In this document: piece by piece, positions 16,443-52,813 of the stretch | How the letters are laid out: every line of letters starts with the position of its first letter | Numbering within the stretch: position 1 is the stretch's first letter | The notes under the pieces: model-generated | Databases searched by the model: none | What the model saw: the letters and a program-made list of their open reading frames with translations, nothing else | What the model was told of the DNA's origin: nothing | Translations under genes and position numbers: made by a program | NCBI GenBank assembly: GCA_040388375.1 | Contig: JAZKBU010000004.1 | Coordinates: forward strand, 124,001-188,000 | Reading direction: 5' to 3' | DNA: 64,000 nucleotides | Source of the DNA: Bacteroidota bacterium | GTDB taxonomy: Bacteria > Bacteroidota > Bacteroidia > UKL13-3

Positions 16443-17135
16443 ATGGCCGAAGTTGATTTAAAATACTGGTATTTGCGCGACCACAAACTGTTTTGGAAGT
16501 TAAGCAACAGCGACCTGAAAGACCTGTGCCTGATAGTGGGTTTTAAAAAAGCTTACAAAGCGGAAATGATTTATTTTGCCGATGAGCAGGTGCCTCGTAT
16601 TTTCCTGCTTAAACGCGGTATGATAAAAATATGTGAGACGGATGAGCAGGGTAATGAAATTATAAAGGACATTATAAAAAAAGGCGATCTGTTTGGCCAG
16701 ATGAGTTTAGATAACGACCAGGAAAGCGGCAACCATGAGTACGCACAAGCTTTAACCGATGTGAGCATTTGCTCATTTAAAATGGACGATTTTGAACGCG
16801 TATTGGAGCGCAACCCGAGCATAGCCATAGGCTATACCAAATTTATGGGCTTAAAGCTAAAGCGTATTGAAAACCGATTTAACAATGTAGTTTTTAAAGA
16901 TGTACGCTCGCGCCTGGTACAGTTTTTTAAAGACTGGGCCGAAAGCGATGGAGAAGCCAAAGACAATAGCATATTGCTTAAAAATTACCTGACCCAGCAC
17001 GATTTAGCCAAACTGGTTTGCAGCACCCGCCAAACGGTTACTACCCTGCTTAACGAAATGGAAAAAGAGCAGTTAATTACCTATGGCCGCAAGGAAATTG
17101 TAATTAATAACTGGGAAACTTTTAAGTTGAAGTAG
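16443..17135 (+). CDS. Crp/Fnr-family transcription regulator
   Basis: 230 residues. N-terminal cyclic-nucleotide-binding-type beta barrel (about residues 15-125; 'GDLFGQMSLDNDQES' is the phosphate-cassette region), a dimerisation helix, and a C-terminal winged helix with 'LTQHDLAKLVCSTRQTVTTLL' near residue 180. There is no N-terminal Cys cluster, so it is not an Fe-S FNR. The effector is unknown. It closes the tightly coupled DinB-NRDE-ATP-grasp-LysE run and may regulate it. It is visibly richer in G+C than the accessory genes that follow. Confidence 0.9.
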   Translation: MAEVDLKYWYLRDHKLFWKLSNSDLKDLCLIVGFKKAYKAEMIYFADEQVPRIFLLKRGMIKICETDEQGNEIIKDIIKKGDLFGQMSLDNDQESGNHEYAQALTDVSICSFKMDDFERVLERNPSIAIGYTKFMGLKLKRIENRFNNVVFKDVRSRLVQFFKDWAESDGEAKDNSILLKNYLTQHDLAKLVCSTRQTVTTLLNEMEKEQLITYGRKEIVINNWETFKLK

Positions 17136-17183: not shown

Positions 17184-17335
17184 GTTGTCGCCAAGTGGCG
17201 GCAAGGAATTCCCGGAGTTTTTTTTCTTCCCGCCAACGGGAGCGACAAAAAAAATTAATTTTTTCTGTTGCCGCCAATGGGTGCAAGGAATAAAATAGTT
17301 TTTTTTACCTGCTTCCATTGGGGGCGGGTTTTCAT
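17184..17335. repeat. Cluster of diverged GC-rich palindromic repeats
   Basis: Element 1, TTGTCGCCAAGTGGCGGCAA (17186-17205), is a 9-bp-arm hairpin with one G-U pair. Element 3 (about 17267-17289) repeats it imperfectly, including the trailing GCAAGGAAT. Element 2 (17229-17248) has CCCG-CCAA-CGGG followed by GCGACAA. A fourth relic (about 17308-17330) reads like the reverse complement. No terminal repeats or transposase, so these look like REP/MITE-like relics. Confidence 0.55.
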
Positions 17336-17393
17336 AGGAATTTTATTTTTAGCAAAAGCCTACTGCCTCCTATTCTTAAAAATAAATTCATAC

Positions 17394-17461: not shown

Positions 17462-18631
17462 ATGAAATCTATATCTCTTTTAATTGGCGCAGGATTTTCC
17501 GCCCCAGCAGGTTATCCAACGGGTGACAAGTTGAACGCATTACTATTAAATTGCAAAGCAGATAATTTTAAGTTTACTTCCTATGGCGCTCTTTACATTT
17601 CTCCTAAACCAGGAAATAAAACATCTTATGATGTAGAGTTTGACTTCTGCATGGAATTGATGCAATATTTCAAAATGAAGAATGGGCACTTTGATTATGA
17701 AGAATTCTATGATTTCTTTAGAGACGAAGCCATTAAAGACGCAGGTGTTGAAAAAATAGCGCAGCCATATCTTAATTCATCAAATGTAAAACAACTTCTT
17801 TTTTCTTTAACAAAAGTGTATGTTCAAGTTGTTTCCTACTATTTAAAAGATAAAAATAATAAAAAGTGGTACGATGACGAGTCTTATTCCACAAACTTAG
17901 ATCTCTATGAAGGATATACAGGGATACTAAAATACCTCCATCAATTAAGTAAAGAATATATTATAAATATTCATAGCCTTAATCATGATTTACTGTTCGA
18001 AAGTTTTGGTAATACTGCATTTATGGCTGGAGAAATAAGTGATGGGTTTGAAGAACAAGATTCGCCCTATTATGGAGACAAATGGCTCTCTCATGGTCAT
18101 ACTTATCGCACAAGATTATCAAGATACACTGGAAAGTATGACAAACAGTTTCGTTTATACAAACTGCATGGTAGTCGTGATTATGGTGTATATTACAAAA
18201 GTGAAGGGAGTATTGCTTCATCTGAGAATTATTTTAAAATTAAGAGTGGGATTGGATTTGATGATATATACAAAGAAGTTAAAAATACAGAAGGTGTAGT
18301 GAATTATGAACACTGTTGGTTGAATTATCATGCAGATTTTTTAATTGGAAAGACATCAAAAATTGAACGTTATAAAGAGCCTTTATTGTATAAAAACATA
18401 TTTGAAAATTTCACTGCTAATCTAGAAGCTGCTGAACAGCTAATAATTATTGGATATGGAGGAAGAGACTCAGAGGTAAATAAACTCATTATTGAAAATT
18501 TTGATTATAAAAATAAACCTGTTTATATAATTGACCCATTTGCTGGTTCAGATGTAAAAGATTTGGCCCTACAGATTAAAGCTAAACTTATAGATAAGCA
18601 ATTGGAGGAATTGAATGCAGGCGATTTTTAA
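17462..18631 (+). CDS. SIR2-like domain protein (candidate anti-phage NADase)
   Basis: 389 residues, no membrane segment. SIR2-type Rossmann signature 'LIGAGFSAPAGYPTG' (GAGxS, residues 9-13), 'INIHSLNHDLLFE' around residue 173 in place of the usual TTNYD, 'LYKLHGSRDYG' with the catalytic-type His near 235, and 'LIIIGYGGRDSEV' near 330. This is the SIR2_2-like group found in prokaryotic defence proteins that consume NAD on infection, not a deacetylase of the CobB type (no zinc Cys quartet). It stands alone in an accessory patch, is more AT-rich than the upstream operon, and is followed by a truncated endonuclease-like stub. A defence role is inferred. Confidence 0.8.
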   Translation: MKSISLLIGAGFSAPAGYPTGDKLNALLLNCKADNFKFTSYGALYISPKPGNKTSYDVEFDFCMELMQYFKMKNGHFDYEEFYDFFRDEAIKDAGVEKIAQPYLNSSNVKQLLFSLTKVYVQVVSYYLKDKNNKKWYDDESYSTNLDLYEGYTGILKYLHQLSKEYIINIHSLNHDLLFESFGNTAFMAGEISDGFEEQDSPYYGDKWLSHGHTYRTRLSRYTGKYDKQFRLYKLHGSRDYGVYYKSEGSIASSENYFKIKSGIGFDDIYKEVKNTEGVVNYEHCWLNYHADFLIGKTSKIERYKEPLLYKNIFENFTANLEAAEQLIIIGYGGRDSEVNKLIIENFDYKNKPVYIIDPFAGSDVKDLALQIKAKLIDKQLEELNAGDF

Positions 18632-18674: not shown

Positions 18675-18803
18675 ATGGAAGCCCCCAAATTATTAAGAAG
18701 ACCTGCAAATTGGCAAGATTTTGAAAGTTTATGTAAAATGTTATGGGGTGAGTTGTGGAAATGCCCTGATGAAATTAAAAAAAACGGAAGAACAGTTTAC
18801 TAA
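18675..18803 (+). pseudogene. 42-codon stub of an Mrr-like endonuclease / defence-protein N-terminus
   Basis: A short open frame 43 bases after the SIR2 gene encodes a 42-residue peptide ending in '...KKNGRTVY'. Its words 'LRRPANWQDFESLCKMLW' and 'WKCPDEIKKNGR' strongly resemble the first ~40 residues of Mrr/REase-like domains that head many defence proteins, which continue with a GQ..GVDVYG segment. Here the frame runs into unrelated sequence and stops, so it is a truncated remnant rather than a functional small protein. Recognition is from memory of the family pattern and would need a search to confirm. Confidence 0.6.
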
Positions 18804-19169
18804 GATTAGTTGTTTTTCCACACCAAAATATAAAGAATTGCTTCATACGTAGCAATAACAGGGGTAACCATATCAGTATTTGTTTGCCAACCGGATAAGG
18901 AGCAAAATACTACCTCCGTATTTCCTTCCCTACTCAGTAGGGAACAAAATACAGACCCCGTAAAAGCTTCCCTATCAGGTAGGGAGCAAAATACGTACCC
19001 TGTATTCCTATACCAACCCGGTTGGCAATACAATACGTACCCCGTAAGACCTTCCCTACCGGGTTAGCAGCATTTCCTGTATTTAATTAGCGTAATTGAT
19101 AATGCATTTTCCATTCTATAAAGATTATTTTTGATAACAAAACTTGTTTAACCTCTTATACTCTGCTAA
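18804..19169. other. Gene-free region dominated by a 42-bp tandem repeat
   Basis: 366 bases between the endonuclease stub and the lipoprotein gene. Most of it is the tandem repeat array described separately. The last ~90 bases are AT-rich and presumably hold the lipoprotein promoter. No complete gene is convincing on either strand. Confidence 0.65.
18879..19081. repeat. 42-bp tandem repeat, four full units plus a 35-bp partial unit
   Basis: Units at 18879-18920, 18921-18962, 18963-19004 and 19005-19046 are each exactly 42 bp; a partial unit covers 19047-19081. Each has a central palindrome of the type TCCCTAC-xxx-GTAGGGA, then GCAAAATAC, then a short TACG-TACCC-CGTA inverted repeat. The units have diverged while keeping length and inverted symmetry. 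There are no spacers, so this is not CRISPR. The minus strand stays open across all units with a 14-residue period (VFCSL core). Confidence 0.85.
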
Positions 19170-19634
19170 ATGACCCGAACCATTTTAACAAGCTTACTTT
19201 TTATGCTGACTATTTTGTTTGCCTGCCAAACCACCAAGGTATTATCGTTAAAAAATAAACAAGGTTATAGGGAGTACAATATACTCAGCAAGGAAAGGTT
19301 TACTGAATTAAAGCAAATGGTCAGTTACAGAACACATGTATTGGACGGTAACTTTAATTATGCCCTTAACTTCACTATTCTTGATTCTGCCCGTTTGGTT
19401 AGTAAAAAACAGCTTCATTTTCCGGCAGATACCACTATTGTTAAACCTAAATTTGATATTGGTTCTATATGGAATTGGGGGGATGAACCATATACTTTAA
19501 AAGGCGATTTTATACTGCTTAACTGGACGGATAGTTCAGTTACTATTGAAGAAGATATGAAGGTGTACGACCTGAGAACAAAGGAACATTTTATTTATAA
19601 AGGCAAAAGGACATTTACTAAAAAAGATAAATAG
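19170..19634 (+). CDS. Predicted lipoprotein, function unknown
   Basis: 154 residues. The N-terminus 'MTRTILTSLLFMLTILFACQTT' has a lipobox (LFAC) with the lipidated Cys at residue 19. The remainder is beta-rich with no recognised domain. It is probably anchored in the inner or outer membrane facing the periplasm. Not obviously linked to its neighbours. Confidence 0.7.
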   Translation: MTRTILTSLLFMLTILFACQTTKVLSLKNKQGYREYNILSKERFTELKQMVSYRTHVLDGNFNYALNFTILDSARLVSKKQLHFPADTTIVKPKFDIGSIWNWGDEPYTLKGDFILLNWTDSSVTIEEDMKVYDLRTKEHFIYKGKRTFTKKDK

Positions 19635-29691: not shown

Positions 29692-30407
29692 TTAAAACAA
29701 TAATTATTGACGATGAAAAATTAGCCCGCGAAGGACTAAAAAACTTGTTAAAGGAATTTACCGATATTGAAATTATTGGCGAAGCAAGTAACGCTGACGA
29801 GGGGCTTGATTTAATCGATAAACTGAAACCACAATTGATATTTTTAGACATACAAATGCCTGAAAAAACGGGCTTTGAAATGTTGGAAGAGTTAATTGAA
29901 ACACCGGCTATTATTTTTACCACTGCTTACAATGAGTTTGCCATTAAAGCTTTTGAGGTAAATGCGTTAGACTATATTTTAAAGCCTATTGAAACCGCAC
30001 GTTTACGTGAGGCCATAGCCAAAGCTAAAAAACAAATTGCTTTGGCTGAGGAGCAAAAAGGAAGTCAAAAATTAGCGGATGACAGCCAGGTTTTTATTCG
30101 CGATGGTGAACGTTGCTGGTATGTTAAGTTAGCCGATATACGCCTTATTGAAAGCAATGGAAACTATGCAAAAATATATTTTGATAAGTTCCAACCGCTT
30201 ATTCACCGTACATTGAATGCATTGGATGAGCGTTTAAACCCGACTATGTTTTTCAGGGCTAACCGCCAACAGATTATTAATTTAAATTATATCGAAAAAA
30301 TTGAACCTTTTTTCAATAGCGGGTTTTTGTTTTATATGAAAGACGGCTCCAAAGTAGAAGTAAGCCGCAGGCAAGCGGTTAAGTTTAAAGACATGATGAG
30401 CTTATAA
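29688..30407 (+). CDS. LytTR-family response regulator
   Basis: 239 residues: receiver domain (residues ~3-120; acidic 'IIDDEKLAREG', phospho-acceptor Asp in 'LIFLDIQMPEKTG', Lys in 'YILKPIE') and a C-terminal LytTR DNA-binding domain ('WYVKLADIRLIESNGNYAKIYF', 'FFRANRQQIINLNYI'). Partner of the kinase just upstream (ATGA overlap). LytTR proteins bind pairs of short direct repeats spaced by about two helical turns; its targets are not evident here. Confidence 0.93.
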   Translation: MIKTIIIDDEKLAREGLKNLLKEFTDIEIIGEASNADEGLDLIDKLKPQLIFLDIQMPEKTGFEMLEELIETPAIIFTTAYNEFAIKAFEVNALDYILKPIETARLREAIAKAKKQIALAEEQKGSQKLADDSQVFIRDGERCWYVKLADIRLIESNGNYAKIYFDKFQPLIHRTLNALDERLNPTMFFRANRQQIINLNYIEKIEPFFNSGFLFYMKDGSKVEVSRRQAVKFKDMMSL

Positions 30408-51163: not shown

Positions 51164-52813
51164 CTACTTTACTACTTCTAAGAATTCCACTTTAAACTCT
51201 ACGCGTCTGTTGCGTGTTCTTCCTTTTGCTGATTTGTTAGTGTCTACCGGCATTGTTTCACCATAGCCTGTTGCGGTTAAACGTAGTGGATCAACACCTT
51301 TAGTAATTAAATAGTTGGAAACTGAAGTGGCACGATCTTGTGAAAGAGTCATATTCATTGCATCGTCACCTACATCATCAGTATGGCCGCCTATCATTAA
51401 TTTATAAGAAGGATTTTCTTTCATTACTTTAACAATAGCATCTAATATAGGGTATGAAACCGGTTTAATAACTGCTTTGCCTGTTTCAAACTGTATTCCT
51501 TGTAATGCTTTTTGGAATAATTGCGTTACTGCTCTAGAAACTTCAGGACAACCTTTGTTAGCAAATGTTCCAGGTAAAGTTATACATCTGTCAATATCAT
51601 CAAATACACCATCGTTATCAGTATCAGGACAACCTGCGTGAGCCGGGCTACCTGCAACTGTAATACATTTATCAATACCATCATTTACACCATCATTATC
51701 AGTATCAGGGCATCCGTTAGTACTTGCAGGGCCTTTTGCATTCGGACACTGATCTTTTGAATCTTCAATACCATCATTATCAGCATCAGGGCAACCTTTT
51801 AACGAAACAGAACCTTTTACATCAGGACATGCATCTTCATCATCTTTTACACCATCACCATCAGTATCAGGACATCCTTCAAAGGCTAATGTACCTTTAA
51901 CATTAGGACATTTATCTTTGCTGTCAATTATACCATCATTGTCTGTATCAGGACATCCGCCTAAGGCTAATATACCGGCTACGTCAGGGCACTGATCTTC
52001 TTTATCAGCCACACCATCTTTATCTGTATCAGGGCAACCTTTTGCGGTTCCTACTTCAGTAGGGCATAAATCTAAATAATCAGCCACACCATCTTTGTCT
52101 GAATCAACAGGACATCCGTCTCTGTCAACTTTAGCAGTTTTTGGAGTAGCCGGGCATTTGTCTTTTTTATCATTTACACCATCACCATCTTCGTCATATG
52201 CTTTTCCTAAATTAAAGTTTAAACCAATGGTGTGTAATAAGAATGCATCATTCATACTACTAACAGGTTGTAAATCGCGTTCATCACTGGTAACTAAATA
52301 ACCATAAGTAGCTTGGTAATTGATACCTACTACACCACTTAGTCTTACGTTAAGTCCACCTCCCACCATTAGTGAAAAGTCTTTACCTTCTACAGTACCT
52401 GTACCTTGAAATCTTGACAAGCCTACACCCGTTAACAAATAAGGTTGAAAAATGCTGTTTTCTTCCAACATATACCCATTATTAAATTTATATTTTATAT
52501 GTAAGTTTAAGTGCAACATATCAGCTCTGAAACCCGCTTGATTGGGTTCATAATAGCTCCAAGAACCGTAAGTTCCCATTCCACCTAAATCAAAAGAAGG
52601 AGTTAAATAACGCGTTAAGCTTAAACCGAGTGTATATGTCTTATCAATATTATCAATAGTTTTATTGTTAAAATATAAAAAGCGGTTGCCTAAATCGCCA
52701 GCATACTCGCTTGTACCACCCATAAGGCCTATATTCCATTTGCGCTCTTCTGTTTGTGCCATGGCACCAAACGCACTGAATAAAATCAGTGAAGAAATTA
52801 GTAAACGTTTCAT
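51164..52813 (-). CDS. OmpA-family protein with thrombospondin type 3 repeats
   Basis: 549 residues. Signal peptide ending 'FGAMAQ', an eight-strand N-terminal barrel to about residue 205, then about eight Ca2+-binding TSP3-type repeats (period of DxDxDGV..xxDxCP, residues ~210-410; e.g. 'DTDGDGVKDDEDACPDV'), and a C-terminal OmpA domain ('GHTDDVGDDAMNMTLSQDRA', 'GYGETMPVDTNKS', 'RTRNRRVEF') that binds peptidoglycan. It ties the outer membrane to the wall. Its promoter has a TATCTTTG -7 and the shared stress-island box, and lacks a -33 TTTG. Confidence 0.95.
   Translation of the reverse strand: MKRLLISSLILFSAFGAMAQTEERKWNIGLMGGTSEYAGDLGNRFLYFNNKTIDNIDKTYTLGLSLTRYLTPSFDLGGMGTYGSWSYYEPNQAGFRADMLHLNLHIKYKFNNGYMLEENSIFQPYLLTGVGLSRFQGTGTVEGKDFSLMVGGGLNVRLSGVVGINYQATYGYLVTSDERDLQPVSSMNDAFLLHTIGLNFNLGKAYDEDGDGVNDKKDKCPATPKTAKVDRDGCPVDSDKDGVADYLDLCPTEVGTAKGCPDTDKDGVADKEDQCPDVAGILALGGCPDTDNDGIIDSKDKCPNVKGTLAFEGCPDTDGDGVKDDEDACPDVKGSVSLKGCPDADNDGIEDSKDQCPNAKGPASTNGCPDTDNDGVNDGIDKCITVAGSPAHAGCPDTDNDGVFDDIDRCITLPGTFANKGCPEVSRAVTQLFQKALQGIQFETGKAVIKPVSYPILDAIVKVMKENPSYKLMIGGHTDDVGDDAMNMTLSQDRATSVSNYLITKGVDPLRLTATGYGETMPVDTNKSAKGRTRNRRVEFKVEFLEVVK

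Follow-up and report, generated by a model that had tools for sequence, protein, structure and literature searches.

A class of locus-specific 41-42-bp tandem arrays tied to a helical protein family in some Bacteroidota, and a probable orphan member

In type III toxin-antitoxin systems, the array lies upstream of the toxin gene. ToxIN and CptIN are described as pairing a repeat RNA with a protein gene. LytTR regulatory systems (LRS) have a single pair of 9-bp repeats, for the most part 12 bp apart, upstream of their promoters; the sequence of the repeats varies by locus, whereas their length, spacing and upstream position are kept (PMC6193735). REPs occur as numerous copies of a single family dispersed over a genome and carry a GTAG or CGTC tag (PMC3733652). 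TIGR units contain variable spacers and yield 36-nt guides that a Nop-domain protein binds (PMC12045711).

The locus considered here, a 42-bp tandem array (the target) in a 64,000-nt window, the whole stretch of DNA (bases 124001-188000 of contig 4), can be compared with each of these systems. It is best explained as a somewhat decayed orphan within a class of 41-42-bp tandem arrays, found in some Bacteroidota, whose sequences are specific to their loci. The class resembles LRS in that the sequence varies and length, spacing and upstream position are kept, and LytTR genes lie beside some of the 42-bp arrays. Unlike LRS, the arrays have about 3-12 units and no 21-bp sub-period, and the partner proteins differ; LRS-type 9-bp direct repeats spaced 21 bp apart are not present in the target (identity at lag 21, 0.14). 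The resemblance to type III toxin-antitoxin systems, a tandem array of locus-specific sequence together with a protein gene, is one of layout only. The arrays lack an RNA-type strand bias, the helical partner protein has no nuclease match above cut-off, and unit sequences are wholly different in some close paralogues. The position of a type III toxin gene, 3' of the target, is occupied by a gene (19170-19634) that has a lipobox by eye and no match in Pfam, which may not model all of ToxN, CptN and TenpN. Like REP and BIME elements, the arrays are intergenic, palindromic and sometimes found in tandem clusters, but the target unit occurs at one genomic place and so does not belong to a REP family. 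TIGR-Tas loci likewise place a short-unit tandem array beside a protein gene, again a likeness in layout only, but the units here are near-copies of each other. No Pfam match to a Nop domain was found in the family members or window genes scanned, and no Nop chain is among the fold matches listed. A CRISPR array was rejected since the target units are contiguous and diverged throughout, with no spacers.

The original prediction of a 42-bp tandem repeat was borne out by five 42-bp rows that align without a gap (zero indels and 75% mean column identity on a 42-bp grid) and by Tandem Repeats Finder (TRF), which reports period 42 at 18896-19059 with 3.9 copies and a score of 192. TRF gives a higher score, 244, to period 84 at 18884-19072. 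An 860-kb order-3 Markov control contained no array of period 41-43 and one of period 38. The G+C fraction is 0.46 in the array and 0.345 in the window. A genome-wide search of the 3.97-Mb assembly (34 contigs) found the target unit at one place only. The array was also absent from the 96 relatives searched; 17 of them gave a match at E <=0.1, and each of these matches spans 16-35 bases with E >=0.0037. The suggestion of a mobile minisatellite, that is, a mobile repeat family of one sequence, was rejected on these grounds. Between the array and the ATG at 19170 lie 91 bp if the last row is taken as the end of the array, or 110 bp by the TRF boundary. The target thus has a 42-bp unit, lies outside any long gene and is upstream of a start codon, at a distance within the 40-180 bp that is typical of the class. 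An HMM search found no helical-family gene in the window, which makes the target an orphan array rather than a full module. Rfam gave no match at gathering score in the window and only a tRNA in ten further array-bearing loci.

Table 1. Features at and around the target array (positions are those of the window), with the arrays of period 41-42 found in the sampled part of the same genome.
Feature	Position	Strand	Basis or description
Target array, 42-bp tandem	18869-19078	.	42-bp grid alignment and TRF
Target row 1, diverged	18869-18910		
Target row 2	18911-18952		
Target row 3	18953-18994		
Target row 4	18995-19036		
Target row 5, diverged	19037-19078		
Clearest palindromic unit	18918-18952	.	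Outer arms 6 bp, inner arms 8-9 bp, short centre, two mismatched positions between arms
Putative lipoprotein gene, 154 aa	19170-19634	+	Signal peptide and lipobox by eye; no Pfam match
Second array, period 41 with 82-83-bp order, palindromic, sequence unlike target	17189-17346	.	TRF and palindrome test
Crp-type regulator gene, directly upstream of second array	16443-17135	+	Pfam cNMP_binding, HTH_Crp_2
SIR2-like gene between both arrays	17462-18631	+	Pfam SIR2_2 below cut-off; PADLOC Aga_SIR2 6.9e-10
Short open frame between SIR2-like gene and target	18675-18803	+	No Pfam or PADLOC match
Arrays in the sampled part of the genome	window 17189, window 18896, L044, L050, L051, L056, L093, L099, L105, L107, L109		

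The second array in the window (Table 1) is flanked by the genes of the Crp-type regulator and the SIR2-like protein and has a layout like that of the target. On contig 6 there is an array that partly resembles it (L051 6989-7223). The short open frame that precedes the target resembles, by eye, the first part of a disrupted gene. Neither a regulator gene nor a family gene adjoins the target, and there is no LytTR gene beside it; the nearest of all 14 LytTR matches in the genome is at window position 30111-30398. Elsewhere in the window, at 51543-52106, are 81-bp repeats that are probably coding, and a similar array lies within a long open frame at L063 14294-14824.

To place the target in context, 1.264 Mb of its own genome (about a third, window included) and 1.2 Mb of five relatives were searched with relaxed TRF settings. 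Outside long open frames, the sample of this genome contained 11 arrays with a period of 41-42 (Table 1), nine of them without a family gene, and the 1.2 Mb sampled from the five relatives contained none of period 41-43. An array of period 42 at L058 4347-4475 was dropped as coding, since it is inside a long open frame. The sequences of the 11 arrays are mostly unrelated, the pairs L093/L109 and L050/L099 being alike by eye, and several arrays show a doubled order of 82-85 bp with alternating units. At L056 7948-8259 the alternation is strict over seven 42-bp units; a family gene adjoins this array, and the gene for a type II restriction enzyme with its methyltransferase is about 35 bp away. 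Units of half the usual length, 21 bp, were seen at L105 12221-12608 (by eye) and L196 2427-2543 (TRF).

The genes that follow the arrays at L056 and L109 are paralogues and encode proteins of about 235 residues. In the 117 genomes searched, this one included, the family was found in five copies here and in further copies in five other genomes, and a 42-bp array lies 5' of each of the five copies in this genome. In a scan of a species collection, the family was found at 12 named loci, all in Bacteroidota MAGs. Profile A1 detected it in 25 of 395 genomes of the class and profile A4 in five of 395 genomes of the phylum, the present genome being counted in both. Most family loci were located or scored with profile A1, in which two of the 14 rows (L050 and L105) later proved unrelated. 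The proteins of these two loci were rejected as family members, though both have arrays 5'; the L105 array precedes an unrelated protein with a CarboxypepD_reg tail, and a sixth match in this genome (C7:271189), which was the L105 row itself, was dropped. Seven GTDB families are represented among the family loci, and two more contribute weak protein matches (L199, 33 bits; L200, 29 bits).

A second kind of member, of about 330 residues, has an extra C-terminal beta domain and is related to the shorter kind with an hhalign probability of 97.5%. The helical part has no name above cut-off in Pfam and NCBIfam (12 members scanned) or in PADLOC (five members), and the same scans gave no nuclease or toxin family match above cut-off. 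The L214 protein ends in a CarboxypepD_reg domain, and L192, L215, L217 and L222 share a C-terminal region that by eye sets them apart from other members, so the helical part occurs with tails of several kinds. AF2 models (mean pLDDT 89 and 91) predict two helical hairpins, each with a helix of 56-57 residues. In a fold search with the helical domain, the best match was the chemoreceptor McpS, at Z 9.1 and an rmsd of 3.4 across 186 residues, and TorS sensor domains scored nearly as well; for a helical bundle, a Z of 9.1 is too low to mean kinship. Foldseek at E 0.001 found no match in the PDB for the L177 protein or in BFVD for the L152 protein. A viral or plasmid origin was rejected, as one query each found no relative in viral_contigs, phages or plasmids.

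The tie between arrays and family genes was examined for 61 distinct family genes, 55 of which have at least 300 bp of upstream sequence. An array was scored if it had a period of 41-43 bp and lay within 700 bp 5' of the gene, in a scan that preferred periods of 38-46 equally. By this measure, 47 of the 55 genes have an array 5' (43 of 42 bp and four of 41 bp), at a median of 82 bp from the start codon (range 37-376) and with a median of 6 copies (range 2.7-12.2). The eight remaining genes comprise six without an array at these settings, one with a 36-bp array and one with a 21-bp array. An array 3' of the gene was found in three of 60 cases. Arrays of 41 bp lie 3' of the family gene at L195, L218 and L224; L195 and L224 are two of the six genes without a 5' array. 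As a control, arrays were found at nine of 811 genes in the sampled part of the target's own genome, two of which are family genes, leaving seven of 809 others, and in the five relatives, which have no family member among the matches listed, at none of the 745 genes sampled. The gene sets behind these counts, and behind the counts of neighbour direction below, came from custom heuristics rather than a gene caller. Fisher tests give p 1.8e-61 (47/55 versus 7/809) and p 0.004 (9/811 versus 0/745); these values are uncorrected for relatedness and are too small, since some of the 55 family genes are close homologues and are not independent.

Comparison of 38 arrays showed units to be alike beyond the shuffled null in seven of ten pairs whose proteins are more than 80% identical, in 5% of pairs at 25-40% protein identity and in 2% of pairs below that. 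Even close homologues can differ entirely, as at L152 and L158, where the proteins are 84% identical and the arrays are unrelated. The array is thus inherited along with its gene, and its sequence turns over fast. The repeat sequence differs at nearly all loci, and the unit length is near-constant. These data establish a class of arrays that is defined by a near-constant unit length, a 5' position, a tie to the helical family and fast sequence change. The original prediction, in which no described family of this form was known to its author, agrees with this result: the class of 41-42-bp arrays is unmatched in the libraries searched, and no literature on such arrays was found in the open-access papers searched.

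The original prediction also described a palindrome in the target that is kept by compensating changes, and took this to suggest that structure matters. The palindrome is real. The target units are approximately symmetric about one centre, and the best palindrome score of the consensus unit is 12, against a shuffled mean of 4.7, with none of 300 shuffles reaching 12. The folding z of the target relative to shuffles is -6.6 on the plus strand and -5.7 on the minus strand. Evidence for compensation is weaker. Two arm types are, by eye, intermixed among the units, which accounts for the look of compensation. For a 15-pair stem that was set by eye from unit 2, 80% of cells are paired, against 73.9% when shuffled (reached by 21 of 500 shuffles), and double changes occur in five pairs, against 2.7 (35 of 500). 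With a stem picked by script the excess disappears, one cell being compensatory against 1.8 shuffled (479 of 500). The pattern in the target is thus real and the compensation weak.

A palindrome at p<0.05 was found in 18 of 48 array consensus units, compared with three of 48 random 42-mers, and the other 30 units have none at this threshold. The class therefore has a modest excess of palindromes. Covariation across these 48 family-linked arrays is at the level of the shuffles (23 compensatory cells against 24.9 shuffled, and 73.9% of cells paired against 74.0%), which indicates that the palindromes are not visibly maintained in each unit. There is a slight excess in the arrays of this genome that lack a family gene (seven of the nine), with 12 compensatory cells against 8.4 shuffled (31 of 500) and 67.2% paired against 64.8%. 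The median folding z of the 48 arrays in the gene sense is -3.9, for a shuffling that also breaks the tandem order. Folding is alike on both strands, the gene-sense strand having the better z in 22 of the 48 arrays, and G-T (171) and A-C (163) mismatches in the stems are about equally frequent. Taken together, the strand-equal folding and the similar mismatch counts mean that nothing points to RNA. Over more copies, the substitutions are largely not compensatory, an outcome that the original prediction had listed as one that would refute it and that here counts largely against the claim of structure; the features that are conserved are the length of the unit and its position.

The genes on the far side of the arrays provide a further line of evidence; 29 of 36 are co-directional. 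Among the matches listed (25 of 32 families), the 37 genes across the array include three with LytTR, three with cNMP_binding and two with GerE, a total of eight LytTR/LuxR/Crp-type regulators against about 0.3 expected. Four genomes, 16.7 Mb in all, have 127 LytTR, cNMP_binding and GerE matches, from which the expected number was reckoned with a density of about one gene per kb. There is, accordingly, an excess of regulator genes directly upstream of the arrays, though the true number of regulator events is below eight since some of the eight are orthologues. In the same four genomes, eight of 19 family genes have a regulator within 1.5 kb 5' (0.22 expected); this count is biased, as the genomes were picked after regulators had been seen there, and the main argument does not use it. 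In 38 arrays, identity at lag 21 was not raised. The Bacteroidota-type promoter box TAnnTTTG shows no clear excess in the spacer between array and gene (5/48, 2.1 shuffled), in the 150 bp upstream (3/47, 2.8 shuffled) or in the arrays (0/48, 3.7 shuffled).

A link between the arrays and defence genes is suggestive, from few and hand-picked cases. PADLOC matched five of eight hand-picked neighbours of arrays in this genome, within about 1.3 kb, compared with one of ten random genes; the matched neighbours include a restriction enzyme with its methyltransferase, AbiLi, PDC-S31 and a TPR model. Four arrays of this genome have defence-type genes (AbiLi, PDC-S31, restriction-modification and SIR2-like) adjacent or no more than about 1.3 kb away, at L158, L050 and L056 and, in the window, at the SIR2-like gene (17462-18631).

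The 5' position at 47 of 55 family genes, the regulator excess, the palindromes in 18 of 48 units, the lack of strand bias and the lack of coding signal support a model in which the arrays are multi-site DNA elements. The array would act as double-stranded DNA and form a row of evenly spaced candidate sites for a dimeric DNA-binding protein, which at part of the loci may be the protein that the adjacent LytTR, LuxR or Crp-type gene encodes. Binding at multiple sites could then produce a cooperative switch for the adjacent gene, and the sequence of the sites would drift along with the binder as their spacing is kept. In the target, such an element would control the putative lipoprotein gene. 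The protein-binding array that was among the original suggestions is, in this form, our best guess, held tentatively and at somewhat less than an even chance. Several observations argue against it. The period of 41 in five of 48 arrays would break strict helical phase across several units, the 21-bp sub-period expected from LytTR direct-repeat binding is missing, and the 48 arrays show no covariation, with 30 lacking a palindrome. Only eight of 37 upstream neighbours match the three kinds of regulator among the matches listed, there is no clear excess of promoter boxes, and neither a regulator nor a member of the helical family is encoded beside the target. A structured RNA array would instead be a transcribed leader in which each unit is a hairpin that is bound by the helical protein or processed, as in type III toxin-antitoxin systems. 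The mostly co-directional gene across the array, the placement 5' of a protein gene, the near-constant unit length and the tie to a protein family are consistent with such a leader, as are folding beyond that of shuffles, subject to the loss of tandem order on shuffling, and the slight compensation excess in arrays of this genome without a family gene. This reading is nevertheless not favoured, and we regard it as unlikely, because the opposite strand folds equally well, G-T mismatches are no commoner than A-C mismatches in any marked degree, the family-linked arrays lack covariation, no array in the window or in the ten further loci scanned has an Rfam match, the scanned family members have no nuclease or toxin match above cut-off, and proteins as similar as those of L152 and L158 can have unrelated arrays.

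Fast sequence turnover and the lack of covariation in family-linked arrays are also what would be expected of a neutral or selfish minisatellite, a functionless product of slippage or palindrome-driven template switching in which an enzyme or the replication fork sets the step of about 42 bases. The wide range of copy number and the nine of 11 arrays in this genome that lack a family gene fit this model as well. It has difficulty in explaining the strong 5' bias (47/55 versus 3/60), the tie to one family and a near-constant unit in seven families, and no arrays were found in the sampled parts of five relatives; on balance, it seems rather improbable. Finally, the original prediction noted a repeating peptide on the minus strand, which raises the prospect that the array is a remnant of protein-coding 14-residue repeats. 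The minus frame is indeed open (18806-19063, 85 aa), and 42 is a multiple of 3, but an equally open plus frame (18834-19067, 77 aa) overlaps it, so that both strands are open together over most of the target. An open frame is lacking in 12 of the 48 class arrays, and five of 48 have a period of 41, so nothing points to coding; with no Pfam match in addition, the open minus frame is incidental, and a coding origin was rejected as largely refuted and very improbable.

The results centre on the array class and its tie to a helical family that is unnamed by Pfam, NCBIfam and PADLOC. It is possible, if somewhat doubtful, that array and helical protein make up an undescribed two-part genetic system of Bacteroidota, similar in layout to CRISPR, TIGR or type III toxin-antitoxin loci, whose machinery would read or write the length of the unit and not its sequence, with nearly each locus having its own repeat; orphan arrays, the target among them, would then be those whose protein gene is gone or acts from afar. 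The conservation of a 42-bp unit (rarely 41) in at least seven bacterial families while its sequence changes amounts to a strong constraint that the libraries and literature searched do not explain, and an undescribed helical protein family gains a genomic partner. Should the arrays prove regulatory, they would rank as multi-site control elements of a size unusual in bacteria; should they belong to a two-part system, they would represent a new layout among array-based systems.
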